From the NCBI GenBank assembly GCA_021734525.1, contig JAIPIW010000009.1, positions 1 through 35,770 of the forward strand: DNA of 35,770 nt. Direction: 5' to 3'. This document shows, piece by piece, positions 704 through 4,401 of the stretch (positions are counted from its first letter, which is position 1; every line of letters starts with the position of its first letter). This stretch comes from Candidatus Altimarinota bacterium. Its GTDB lineage: Bacteria; Patescibacteriota; Gracilibacteria; UBA4473. The position numbers and the translations under genes were made by a program. The notes under the pieces are model-generated. The model was given only the letters and a program-made list of their open reading frames with translations, had not been told where the DNA came from and made no database searches.

Positions 704-730
704 TGAAAGGAATTATTTCCCTCTGCGTAT
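704..730 (+). promoter_or_regulatory. ECF-type promoter before the secreted protein
   Basis: TGAAAG (704-709), a 16-nt spacer and CGTAT (726-730). This matches the known TGAAAC-N16-CGTA layout of ECF sigma promoters such as Bacillus SigW. The same layout recurs before the ECF sigma gene at 1394. The expected transcription start is near 737. Confidence 0.6.
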
Positions 731-781
731 TAGGAGGTGAAGCTTCTAAAATTTATTTCTTATTTTTTAATCAAAAAAACA

Positions 782-1327
782 ATGAAAGTTTCTAAAATCA
801 GTTTCATGTCAGTAGTAGCCCTTATGGCTATGATTATCGTTACTTCTCAGACTTATGCTTTTGGAGGCAAAGGTAGTCACAGGGAAATGACTCAGGAGAG
901 ATTCGAGGAAATGAGACAACTTTTCCTAAATAATGACTTCGAATCATTCAAGAAGGTTATGGAAGAAAAACGTCAGAGTTATATGGAAGATCGACAGACT
1001 TCTCAGGATAGTATTACCCGTGAAGTAATTAGTATAGACAATGGAGTAGAAATGACTCTTACTTCTACAGATCCAGAAGTAGTGGTTAGACTTCAATCCA
1101 GAGAAGAAAGAGCCCCTCGTAATTCAGAAGTTACTAGAGTAAAAGAAAATATTACTAATGGGATCAAAATTACTATTACTTCAGATAACGAAGAATTAGT
1201 GAAAAATATTCAGTCTGGAAAAGAGAAAATGTCTGCTCGAGGTCGTATGGGCCGGGGAGGTCGAGGATTTGTATCTAAATTAGGACGAGGACAGTGGAAA
1301 GGTGAGAAAGAGGGAAATATTCAATAA
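782..1327 (+). CDS. Secreted protein with an internal repeat, linked to an ECF sigma factor
   Basis: No family recognised. From the ATG at 782 the protein has 181 residues. It begins with a typical signal peptide: MKVSK, a hydrophobic stretch of about 18 residues, then a likely cleavage site after TYA-F (residue 26). The mature part has a charged helical segment (REMTQERFEEMRQLF) loosely reminiscent of periplasmic Spy/CpxP-type stress proteins, though that likeness is weak. It is followed by two copies of a module of about 30 residues built on NGVEMTLTSTDPEVV and NGIKITITSDNEELV, and a Gly/Arg-rich tail. An upstream in-frame GTG at 737 overlaps the AGGAGG at 732-737 and would spoil the signal peptide, so 782 is preferred. 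An ECF-type promoter lies upstream and a hairpin terminator follows, so the gene is probably its own unit. Role inferred: envelope stress target or sensor. Confidence 0.75.
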   Translation: MKVSKISFMSVVALMAMIIVTSQTYAFGGKGSHREMTQERFEEMRQLFLNNDFESFKKVMEEKRQSYMEDRQTSQDSITREVISIDNGVEMTLTSTDPEVVVRLQSREERAPRNSEVTRVKENITNGIKITITSDNEELVKNIQSGKEKMSARGRMGRGGRGFVSKLGRGQWKGEKEGNIQ

Positions 1328-1351
1328 GTACTTTTATTCTCGTCTAATTAA

Positions 1352-1382
1352 GGGCTCCCTATAAAATAGGGAGCTTTTTATT
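1352..1382 (+). terminator. Rho-independent terminator
   Basis: GCTCCCTAT pairs with ATAGGGAGC across a short A-rich loop and is followed by TTTTTATTT. It ends the secreted-protein gene 25 nt after its stop. Confidence 0.85.
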
Positions 1383-1393
1383 TGTGATAAAGA

Positions 1394-1420
1394 TGAAAGA
1401 AAATATCATTAATTGCGTTT
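1394..1420 (+). promoter_or_regulatory. ECF-type promoter before the sigma gene
   Basis: TGAAAG (1394-1399), a spacer of exactly 16 nt and CGTTT (1416-1420), 13 nt before the sigma ATG. Hexamer and spacing are the same as at 704-730, which fits autoregulation by the sigma factor encoded here. Confidence 0.6.
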
Positions 1421-1433
1421 AAAGTATTGTTAG

Positions 1434-2000
1434 ATGAAAAGACAGGATTTTACAGATGAGCAGTTAGTGGGAAAATCTCTAGAAGACATAGATTTCTTTG
1501 GTTCTTTGGTAGAACGCTACGAAAAACGATTATTGAATTATGTTTTTAGAATATCTGGGTTTAGTCCCGAGATTGCTGAAGAGATCCTTCAGGAGGTTTT
1601 TCTCAAGGTCTGGAAAAATTTGAATGATTTTTCGGCACCGATGAAATTTTCTAGTTGGATTTATAGAATAACGCATAACGAAACTATCTCCACTTTCCGG
1701 AAAATGAAATCTAGGGGAGAACCAGAACAAGTAGAACTAGATGAGAACTTATTCCTGCCGGATAAATCTGATTTCGTGGAGGAGTTTGACCAAGAGATTT
1801 CTTCTTTGGCTATCAAGAAGGTTTTAGCAGTTTTAACCGAGAAATATCGGGAGGTGCTAGTTCTACGTTTTTTTGAAGATAAGAGCTATGAGGAAATATC
1901 TGATATTCTTCAAGTTCCTTCTGGAACCGTTGCCACCCTTATTGCTCGATCTAAAAACAGCTTTCGGGAAGCATCTTCTCGTCTTAATTTGAATTTTTAA
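1434..2000 (+). CDS. ECF (extracytoplasmic function) RNA polymerase sigma factor
   Basis: At 188 residues this has the two-domain ECF layout. Sigma-2 spans about residues 27-90: helix ERYEKRLLNYVFRISG, the core-binding IAEEILQEVFLKVWKNL, and FSSWIYRITHNETISTFRK for -10 recognition. A variable acidic linker follows. Sigma-4 spans about 131-180: LTEKYREVLVLRFFEDKSYEEISDIL, then the helix-turn-helix VPSGTVATLIARSKNSFRE that reads the -35 element. It directs RNA polymerase to a small promoter set in response to envelope signals. The next gene, a membrane protein, starts 9 nt after the stop and is the natural candidate for its anti-sigma partner. The promoter-like element upstream has the ECF layout, so the gene is probably autoregulated. 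Confidence 0.93.
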   Translation: MKRQDFTDEQLVGKSLEDIDFFGSLVERYEKRLLNYVFRISGFSPEIAEEILQEVFLKVWKNLNDFSAPMKFSSWIYRITHNETISTFRKMKSRGEPEQVELDENLFLPDKSDFVEEFDQEISSLAIKKVLAVLTEKYREVLVLRFFEDKSYEEISDILQVPSGTVATLIARSKNSFREASSRLNLNF

Positions 2001-2009
2001 TTTATTATA

Positions 2010-2813
2010 ATGAACCCTACCAAAATATCCGCTTCCGTCCTCAAAAAAATAAAAACCCAAAACATAGTTCCTAAGAGTAAATGGCAATTCTTATTCAAAA
2101 ATGTTCTGCTCTGGATACTATTTGGTTTTTCGGTACTACTTAGTGCTATTGGGGTCTCTGTGATTATCTTTGCTTTTAGGGAAACTGATTTTGATCTTTT
2201 CTCTTACTTAGATGGATCTGCTCTACAAAGATTCTTGAGTTTACTGCCAATTTTCTGGCTTTTATTTTTTGCGGTATTTGTTGGAATAGCTTTAATTGGA
2301 CTGCGAAAAACAAAAAGAGGTTATCGATTTTCCGTATCTAAACTTTTACTAGTTAATATGGTTTTAGGAATATTGCTGGGAACTGTTTTTTACAATCTGG
2401 GTGGATCTGAAAAATTTGAAAGTGTTTTTGCAAATAATGTTAGATTCTACCGAGGAATACATAACGAACGCTTAAGACGTTGGGCTCGTCCAAGCCAGGG
2501 AAGACTTGCTGGAGAAATTATAGAAATAAAAAAAGAACAGATCTTTCTTTTAAATGATTTTGACCAAAAAGAATGGCGAGTAGATGCTCGAGATTTAATT
2601 CGGGAACTACCTTTCGAGCTTCAAGTGGGAATGAAAATCAGGATGATTGGTGAGGAGATTTCTAAAAACGAATTTAAAGCAAAGGTGATTCGTCCTTGGC
2701 GAATGGAACCAAGGAGGGACTTGAAGGGGGAGAGACGAAGACCAGAAATGCGCTTTCCTGGTGAACGACCTATGGAAAGAAATGAGTTTCTAAAAAATTC
2801 TATAGAACAATAA
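2010..2813 (+). CDS. Three-TM membrane protein, candidate anti-sigma factor
   Basis: No family recognised. The 267 residues show a Lys-rich N-terminal tail of about 30 residues (probably cytoplasmic), TM1 at about 31-55, TM2 at about 78-98, a basic cytoplasmic loop (RKTKRGYR), and TM3 at about 112-131. A C-terminal region of about 135 residues should therefore lie outside. It contains a beta-rich stretch (GRLAGEIIEIKKEQIFLLNDF...WRVDA...VGMKIRMIGEEI) that looks OB-like, and a basic Arg/Pro-rich end. The gene starts 9 nt after the sigma stop, so the two are co-transcribed. Topology and position fit an anti-sigma factor whose short N-terminal tail holds the sigma and whose outer domain senses the envelope. 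That is inference; no known anti-sigma domain (ZAS, RseA-like) is visible. Confidence 0.75.
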   Translation: MNPTKISASVLKKIKTQNIVPKSKWQFLFKNVLLWILFGFSVLLSAIGVSVIIFAFRETDFDLFSYLDGSALQRFLSLLPIFWLLFFAVFVGIALIGLRKTKRGYRFSVSKLLLVNMVLGILLGTVFYNLGGSEKFESVFANNVRFYRGIHNERLRRWARPSQGRLAGEIIEIKKEQIFLLNDFDQKEWRVDARDLIRELPFELQVGMKIRMIGEEISKNEFKAKVIRPWRMEPRRDLKGERRRPEMRFPGERPMERNEFLKNSIEQ

Positions 2814-2936
2814 TTTTGTTCAAAAAACAAAGATTAAAACAACATGAAATGGTTGTTTGTTCCAGAAGATATTTTTGTTTTCTTTTTTATTTATCCTTTA
2901 CAATACAAGAAGTTTTATTTTCTAACCCATATTAAT

Positions 2937-3326
2937 ATGGAAACTTCTCTATTTCTGGCCAAATTCCTTGGTATTATGTTCACCGTTATGGGATTGGCCA
3001 TACTGTTTAATTTTAAGACCTACCCTAAAGTAATGGGTGATGTGCTTAAAAATTCAGCTTTGGTTTATCTGTGCGGGTTCTTATCTCTCATGATGGGAAT
3101 ACTCTTGGTACTTTTCCACAATGTTTGGGAAGGGGGCTGGGTAGTTCTAATCACCGTTATTGCTTGGATTTCTTTGGTGAAAGGAGTGCTTCTTTTGCTT
3201 TTCCCAGGGTGGATGACAAAGATGAAGCAAACAATGTGTACTAGTACTTGGTGTGGATTTGGATTAGTATTTTGTTTTGTAGTGGGACTTTTCCTTTTAT
3301 CTAAGGGATACGCTATTACATTTTAA
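2937..3326 (+). CDS. Small four-TM integral membrane protein
   Basis: Unrecognised. From the ATG at 2937 there are 129 residues with four hydrophobic helices: FLAKFLGIMFTVMGLAILF, ALVYLCGFLSLMMGILLVLF, WVVLITVIAWISLVKGVLLLLF and WCGFGLVFCFVVGLFLL. An upstream ATG at 2844 would add a Phe/Tyr-rich extension (FVFFFIYPLQYKKFYF) that looks like translated noncoding DNA, so 2937 is preferred. The overall look is that of small DUF2065/DUF308-like membrane proteins, but I cannot assign a family. It lies 123 nt after the candidate anti-sigma gene and is followed by a strong hairpin. Confidence 0.65.
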   Translation: METSLFLAKFLGIMFTVMGLAILFNFKTYPKVMGDVLKNSALVYLCGFLSLMMGILLVLFHNVWEGGWVVLITVIAWISLVKGVLLLLFPGWMTKMKQTMCTSTWCGFGLVFCFVVGLFLLSKGYAITF

Positions 3327-3446: not shown

Positions 3447-3475
3447 TTGACAAAAATTGTTTTTGAAAGAGAATC
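3447..3475 (+). promoter_or_regulatory. Possible promoter for the amidinotransferase-fold gene
   Basis: TTGACA at 3447-3452, a 17-nt spacer, then AGAATC. The -35 is perfect but the -10 is poor. The leader would be about 45 nt. Confidence 0.35.
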
Positions 3476-3528: not shown

Positions 3529-4401
3529 ATGAGTGATATTTATGTTTCTAGTGAGACCGGTAAACTTTACTCTGTTATTTTGGGTAGAGCTGAGACTTTG
3601 AATTTAACAGCCGATGATCTAATTTCCTTTCACTTGGAGGAGTCTTTTAAGAATGCAGACTTGCCCAAAAAGGAGAAGGCCATAGCAGAATTTACTGCTT
3701 TAGGAAAAATTCTAAAAGAAAGAGGCGTTGAAGTTTTTCGTCCGGATATTTTAGATACACCAGAGCAACTTAATACACGAGACATTGGATTTGTTATCCA
3801 AGATACTTTTTTTGTATCCCACATGAAAGTGGATACTCGTCAGGATGAAATAGTCGCAATTGAACGTTTTATAAAAAAATTTCCCAAGGTAGTTCGTGTT
3901 CCAGAAGGAGTCATGATTGAAGGTGGAGATATAGTTGTGGATAAAGGGCATGTTTTTATTGGAGTAGGGGTGCGAACCAATGAAGAGGGCATGAAATGGT
4001 TAAAAAATTATTTAGAAGAGAATGGTTTTGCAGAAGAATTTAAAATAGTGCCTGTTTTTATCAAGAAACTTGTCATAGGAGAGATATTGCATCTAGATTG
4101 TGCTTTTATGCCTGTTGGGGAAGATTTGGCTTTAATTTATCTACCGGCTTTTGCAGAGGGAGTTCCAGCGGAAATAATAGACAATTATCGTTTAATTGAA
4201 GTTACAGAGGAGGAACAAAGAAATCTTGGCACTAATGTTTTGAGTCTAGATAAATGCACTGTCATTTCTCGTCCGGAATCTGTCCGGATAAACGGACTAC
4301 TGGAAAAAGAGGGAATAAAAGTAATCCCTCTTTCTTTTAACGAAAACCCCAAAACTGGCGGAAGTTTTAGGTGTGCTACTTTACCTTTGGTAAGAAAATA
4401 A
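3529..4401 (+). CDS. Arginine deiminase / amidinotransferase-superfamily enzyme
   Basis: The 290-residue protein has the motif order of the guanidino-group-modifying superfamily (arginine deiminase, dimethylargininase, glycine amidinotransferase): NTRDIGFV (about 83-90), the Glu/Asp motif IEGGDIVV (about 130-137), the catalytic His in LHLDCAFMPV (about 183-192), and a C-terminal GGSFRCATLPL whose Cys (about 283) should be the nucleophile. Such enzymes attack the guanidinium carbon of arginine or a derivative through a covalent Cys intermediate. The length fits the single-domain dimethylargininase/amidinotransferase type better than full arginine deiminase (about 400 residues), so the substrate is left open. 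No other arginine-pathway gene is nearby. The gene is convergent with tmRNA, leaving only 5 bp between the two ends. Confidence 0.82.
   Translation: MSDIYVSSETGKLYSVILGRAETLNLTADDLISFHLEESFKNADLPKKEKAIAEFTALGKILKERGVEVFRPDILDTPEQLNTRDIGFVIQDTFFVSHMKVDTRQDEIVAIERFIKKFPKVVRVPEGVMIEGGDIVVDKGHVFIGVGVRTNEEGMKWLKNYLEENGFAEEFKIVPVFIKKLVIGEILHLDCAFMPVGEDLALIYLPAFAEGVPAEIIDNYRLIEVTEEEQRNLGTNVLSLDKCTVISRPESVRINGLLEKEGIKVIPLSFNENPKTGGSFRCATLPLVRK

Follow-up and report, generated by a model that had tools for sequence, protein, structure and literature searches.

The stretch of DNA analysed here (35,770 nucleotides, hereafter the window) corresponds to contig C11 in a draft genome of 934.6 kb and 43 contigs that is about 90% complete; the standard genetic code is used, the long genes of the window having no in-frame TGA. 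Near its 5' end the forward strand carries genes for a secreted protein, for an ECF sigma factor and for a protein with three transmembrane helices (three-TM protein), together with two promoters, the gene anatomy and promoter sites being computed here. The first promoter (704–731), recognized by the consensus of relatives, presents a −35 element TGAAAGGAA (704–712) beginning with TGAAAG (704–709), which is followed by N16 and a −10 element CGTATT (726–731); a TG dinucleotide lies at the predicted start site (738–739), 8–9 nt after CGTA. This promoter precedes an ATG-initiated gene for a Sec-type protein of 181 aa (782–1327). An intrinsic terminator (1350–1378) with a 13-pair stem and a T tail lies between the secreted gene and the sigma operon and makes them separate transcription units, hence the two promoters. 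The second promoter (1394–1421), supported by enrichment of such sites upstream of sigma genes in relatives, comprises a −35 element TGAAAGAAA (1394–1402, with TGAAAG at 1394–1399), N16 and a −10 element CGTTTA (1416–1421), and its TG at the predicted start site (1428–1429) lies 5 nt 5' of the ATG, leaving a very short leader. The sigma gene (1434–2000, 188 aa) and the three-TM gene (2010–2813, 267 aa), a predicted anti-sigma gene by topology, coevolution and AlphaFold modelling, share one frame. The coordinates (2000 to 2010) confirm the 9 nt between sigma stop and three-TM start given in the initial annotation, and the two matching ECF-type promoters that it described, TGAAAG-N16-CGTAT at 704 and TGAAAG-N16-CGTTT at 1394, are present as such. 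Further 3' lie a gene for a four-TM protein (2844–3326), with homologues near the module in two other genomes (L164, 58%; L019, 40%), and a gene resembling arginine deiminase and dimethylarginine dimethylaminohydrolase (3529–4401; Pfam ADI 5e-25).

The sigma factor matches Pfam Sigma70_r2 (9.6e-15) and Sigma70_r4_2 (9.2e-15) as well as TIGR02937 above cut-off, and consists of regions 2 and 4 with no further sigma regions in about 190 aa, which places it among the ECF (group IV) factors. Its nearest solved structure and nearest model are both SigW. In a sigma tree the factors neighbouring a three-TM gene cluster together, requiring 5 changes compared with 18 after shuffling.

Hydropathy analysis of the three-TM protein gives three transmembrane helices, and the positive-inside rule orients it with a cytoplasmic N-terminus and an external C-terminus. 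A cytosolic helix (residues 6–16) is followed by TM1 (~36–54), TM2 (~78–96), a basic cytosolic loop (97–108) and TM3 (~109–127), beyond which a predicted extracytoplasmic OB-fold (~165–230) leads into a basic tail. The basic cytoplasmic tail previously ascribed to this protein is therefore partly relocated: the basic N-terminal ~30 residues and the TM2–TM3 loop are cytoplasmic, but the basic C-terminal tail is outside by topology. The protein contains no cysteine and one histidine. The proposal that the operon encodes a membrane anti-sigma candidate lacking any catalogued anti-sigma domain, alongside a secreted gene with the same promoter type, is borne out: no anti-sigma family in Pfam or NCBIfam matched the window protein or 25 relatives above cut-off, and a sequence search of the PDB with the family returned no homologue. 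An 'anti-sigma factor' match to NF052375 (E 8.5e-4; 19 bits, cut-off 100) was set aside, as it is confined to the C-terminal tail of a single relative (L007). Assignment as a transporter was likewise rejected, no family scoring above cut-off. The three-TM protein could instead be an effector or sensor, transporter-like or an envelope protein, which is co-transcribed with the sigma factor or activates it rather than inhibiting it; the missing anti-sigma domain, a cytosolic N-terminal part of only ~30 residues and a weak, sub-cut-off likeness to membrane transporter families are what such a protein would be expected to show. The cytosolic helix, however, is conserved and carries residues of a buried type (Ile14 is 91% Ile).

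To model the pair, AlphaFold was given window positions 1434–2810 read through the sigma stop, with TAA as Gln and 63 alignment rows. The resulting model has a mean pLDDT of 84.6 and a pTM of 0.68, with the anti-sigma helix 6–16 at a pLDDT of ~97 and a five-stranded barrel for which the Foldseek matches include the OB-fold of IF-1 (4ql5; probability 1.00, TM 0.74 by target, E 0.01). Taken as a whole, the sigma domains of this read-through model fit solved complexes badly on superposition (RMSD >10 Å). Mean-field DCA on 188 sigma/anti-sigma pairs, with 11 re-pairings as control, gave the strongest inter-protein coupling between sigma Val26, in region 2.1, and anti-sigma Val10 (1.47, against re-pairing maxima of 0.83–1.27), and this is the only coupling clearly above the shuffled maxima. 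The second, between Ser67 and Lys102 of the TM2–TM3 loop (1.27), equals the largest re-pairing maximum. All five top couplings involve the membrane protein's cytosolic residues (43 of its 233 columns), and Val10 also couples to Ile51 (0.78); by position Val26 and Ile51 belong to sigma regions 2.1/2.2. These data suggest that the sigma factor and the membrane protein coevolve, a suggestion short of proof since shuffling also removes the phylogenetic signal. In class I anti-sigma domains it is helix 4 that binds to regions 2.1/2.2 and prevents their contact with the RNA polymerase clamp (PMC7406223). By analogy the three-TM protein is likely an anti-sigma factor reduced to the equivalent of helix 4, possibly with the help of the cytosolic loop, and coevolution and, indirectly, the read-through model support its predicted binding to the cognate sigma factor. 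The placing of the top inter-protein couplings on cytosolic segments, the conserved helix and the near-invariant adjacency of the three-TM gene to sigma across the phylum (see below) all argue against a non-inhibitory effector or sensor, which we consider distinctly improbable.

SigW-type promoters have the consensus TGAAA(C/G)-N16-CGTA. Within the window TGAAAG-N15..17-CGTWT occurs only at the two places described (0.17 expected; at least two in 2 of 100 shuffles), and a third TGAAAG, at 3464, was rejected as a promoter for want of a −10 element. The search of the genome for TGAAAG-N16-CGT proposed in the initial annotation has a divided outcome, as the short motif is no more frequent than chance (20 occurrences of TGAAAG-N15..17-CGT in the whole genome and 22 of its reversed control), whereas an extended motif is specific and tracks the module across genomes. 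Allowing at most one mismatch to TGAAAGAAA-N13/14-CGTAT, the genome holds three sites, of which two are those of the window and the third lies on contig C32; scans of the genome at two mismatches returned background only. The complete motif of relatives reads TGAAA(G, less often T)AAA-N13/14-CGTA(TTA). Among 60 relatives the extended motif was counted 72 times, against 13 for the control, in the 32 genomes with a three-TM gene, and 10 times against 10 in the 28 without one (Mann–Whitney p ~2e-7). TGAAA-N16..18-CGTA stands 5' of sigma in 38 of 111 loci (0.35 after shuffling) and directly 3' of the anti-sigma gene in 36 of 110 (0.2 after shuffling), such that a recognizable autoregulatory site is present at about a third of sigma loci only. 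As the extended motif co-occurs with the module, we assign it to this sigma factor, which on this computational ground appears to recognize its own −35/−10 promoter and thus to be autoregulated. The short motif's chance frequency in the genome would also be expected if the promoter motifs were fortuitous matches and the three genes unrelated neighbours; the extended motif, which is linked to the module from genome to genome and sits at the starts of genes, makes that reading disfavoured to the point of being scarcely credible.

The TG dinucleotide, which is carried by both window promoters and was overlooked in the earlier description, recurs at a fixed distance. Among 89 non-sigma sites having A as the third base after CGTA, TG falls exactly 8–9 nt after CGTA in 51, while none of the other offsets from 0 to 29 exceeds 6; in sigma promoters it is found at 8–9 nt in 7 of 32 (Fisher p 8e-4 against the non-sigma sites). 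If the −10 element is taken as CGTATT, the T of TG lies 7 nt from its edge, at the +1 place, and the G at +2. In the core recognition element, +1T is unstacked by residues of the RNA polymerase beta subunit, and +2G is captured in a pocket of the same subunit (PMC5101437; PMC5730371), and the position of the TG fits this element, as which we would read it. The TG element would then be a known preference of RNA polymerase, the new aspect being its enrichment in the effector promoters of one regulon. Counted another way, 40 of 119 non-sigma motif sites have RTG placed exactly 7 nt downstream of CGTA (737–739 in the window), often with short palindromes following it. A leaderless start codon (the window GTG at 737 opens a frame of 196 aa) is disfavoured because most sites open no long frame, any base may precede TG and TTG also occurs. 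The alternative of a 5' mRNA hairpin with RTG at its base was not adopted, the mean folding energy being −4.7 against −3.2 for shuffled sequences, with many sites lacking a stem.

A profile of the three-TM protein has matches in 32 of 60 near relatives, in 110 of 353 genomes of the class and in 89 of 380 sampled across the phylum; in some members of the class the matching frames contain many TGA codons, as TGA-recoding lineages would be expected to show. Of 199 distinct anti-sigma loci all but 7 have a sigma hit next to them, and 5 of these exceptions arise because the retrieved sequence begins at the anti-sigma gene itself. The sigma/anti-sigma module is real and widely conserved. Conservation of the three-gene order in relatives, on which the initial annotation had staked its reading, holds in part: the order of sigma and anti-sigma genes is kept almost everywhere, but the secreted gene lies upstream of sigma mainly in this family and in a few others. 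At other loci no secreted gene accompanies the pair, or one encoding another small secreted protein follows the anti-sigma gene under a promoter of its own. The conserved unit is the sigma/anti-sigma pair, and the three-gene order is a family-level feature. One locus (L026, genome G024) has a truncated orphan anti-sigma gene without sigma, likely a case of module decay. Copies of the module also occur in metagenome-assembled genomes labelled Chlorobiaceae (L174, L176, L181), Atribacterota (L184, L196), Myxococcota (L191), Saprospiraceae (L186) and Micavibrio (L171), through either mis-binned contigs or horizontal transfer.

The 181-aa secreted protein, encoded by a single-copy gene, consists of a signal peptide, a helical hairpin, two tandem beta-beta-alpha repeats (NGVxxTxTSxDxEVVxxLQ) and a basic, Gly-rich tail, and has no cysteine and one histidine. 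It has no match above cut-off in Pfam or NCBIfam, a PDB sequence search with its family gave no homologue, and its model no significant Foldseek match; a CpxP-like feedback or scavenging role is our guess. The third promoter site, a perfect extended motif TGAAAGAAAATATTCTTTTCTTGCGTAT (L047, L106) on the reverse strand of contig C32 (4631–4658), heads an operon that encodes an HlyD/MacA adaptor (HlyD_3 5e-15), an ABC ATPase (2e-34) and a MacB_PCD-FtsX permease (1.7e-49), the set of components of a MacAB-type efflux system, and ends with a DUF5666-like secreted protein (sub-threshold, E 0.04). Contrary to the initial annotation, the cassette is not self-contained, since the same promoter heads this distant operon here and other genes in relatives. 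Regulon candidates from relatives and from the genome itself, 49 genes picked by motif and by eye as a sample rather than a census and including the secreted gene of the window, contain 6 HlyD-family adaptors, small secreted repeat proteins, an ABC ATPase, a polysaccharide deacetylase, and YfdX and DUF2202 proteins. From the efflux, cell-wall and secreted proteins among them we infer an envelope-stress regulon. The module could respond to metal (copper or silver) or oxidative stress instead of to peptides or general envelope damage, with secreted Met-rich and CpxP-like proteins binding metal. Genes for Met-rich secreted proteins that carry this promoter in two genomes (G001 and G012; loci L107 and L103) and the sub-threshold CpxP likeness of the window's secreted protein (E 0.009) point that way; the lack of cysteine and the solitary histidine in both the secreted protein and the anti-sigma of the window, and a pump of MacAB type (MacB_PCD 1.7e-49) rather than a Cus or P-type system, point the other way, and we hold a metal or oxidant signal to be unlikely.

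We consequently favour, with a probability of roughly 0.8, a reading of the module as an autoregulated ECF sigma/anti-sigma signalling system of Patescibacteria (class Gracilibacteria sensu lato) for defence against envelope stress or toxic peptides. Of the earlier interpretation as a whole, the autoregulated ECF sigma factor, the membrane anti-sigma candidate and the co-regulated secreted protein stand, while self-containment does not. The gene anatomy, the promoter sites and their association with the module, the conservation of the pair and the class of fold are computational results. In the mechanism that we infer for inhibition, sigma release, signal and physiological role, the three-TM protein would hold the sigma factor at the membrane, its short N-terminal helix covering the RNA-polymerase-binding face of region 2 and the basic TM2–TM3 loop probably aiding the hold. 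The extracytoplasmic OB-fold would sense envelope damage or a partner, and the signal would release the sigma factor through a conformational change or proteolysis, for which a Peptidase_M50 (site-2-type protease) gene in the genome provides a candidate. The freed sigma factor would direct RNA polymerase to TGAAAGAAA-N13/14-CGTATTA-TG promoters, that is, to its own operon in a positive feedback, to the adjoining gene for the secreted alpha/beta repeat protein and to the distant MacA–MacB operon with its OB-type secreted protein, targets which together may amount to a response against envelope stress or toxic peptides, role and signal being guessed from the content of the regulon.

The module shares with SigW–RsiW of Bacillus and other class I (ASDI) pairs a sigma factor of regions 2 and 4, a TGAAA(C/G)-N16-CGTA promoter and an autoregulated two-gene operon. 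As with ASDI helix 4 (PMC7406223), an anti-sigma helix is coupled to sigma regions 2.1/2.2. However, class I domains are four-helix cytosolic domains of ~100 aa, often with an HxxxCxxC motif, whereas the window protein matches no such family and has one confident N-terminal helix before TM1 in ~30 cytosolic residues, no zinc motif or cysteine, three TMs and an extracytoplasmic OB-fold, and the −35 element is extended to TGAAAGAAA. A short cytosolic N-terminus ahead of the membrane part recalls the class II anti-sigma factor CnrY, but CnrY places two sigma-binding helices around CnrH (PMC7406223), while the window protein has a single confident helix and three TMs, with a cytosolic loop that may contribute. 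The secreted protein resembles CpxP/Spy-type proteins in being small, secreted and furnished with a helical hairpin, in its presumed strong regulation by stress and in a weak likeness to NF009391 (E 0.009, far below cut-off), yet its main body of two beta-beta-alpha repeats has no structural match. The C32 operon has the HlyD/MacA, ABC ATPase and MacB_PCD-FtsX permease genes of MacA–MacB systems but encodes ATPase and permease separately and adds the DUF5666-like secreted gene. The open-access literature searched yielded no papers on ECF sigma or anti-sigma factors of Patescibacteria. A single module of this phylum lets a sigma factor be read side by side with its likely inhibitor, its promoter code and a small regulon; the three-TM protein is a possible minimal form of anti-sigma factor, and the promoter motif offers a testable means of spotting stress genes where hypothetical proteins abound. 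The same genome also encodes a second, distant ECF sigma factor (L002, contig C17; 31% identity), whose gene has no three-TM partner and adjoins a prfA-like release factor gene.
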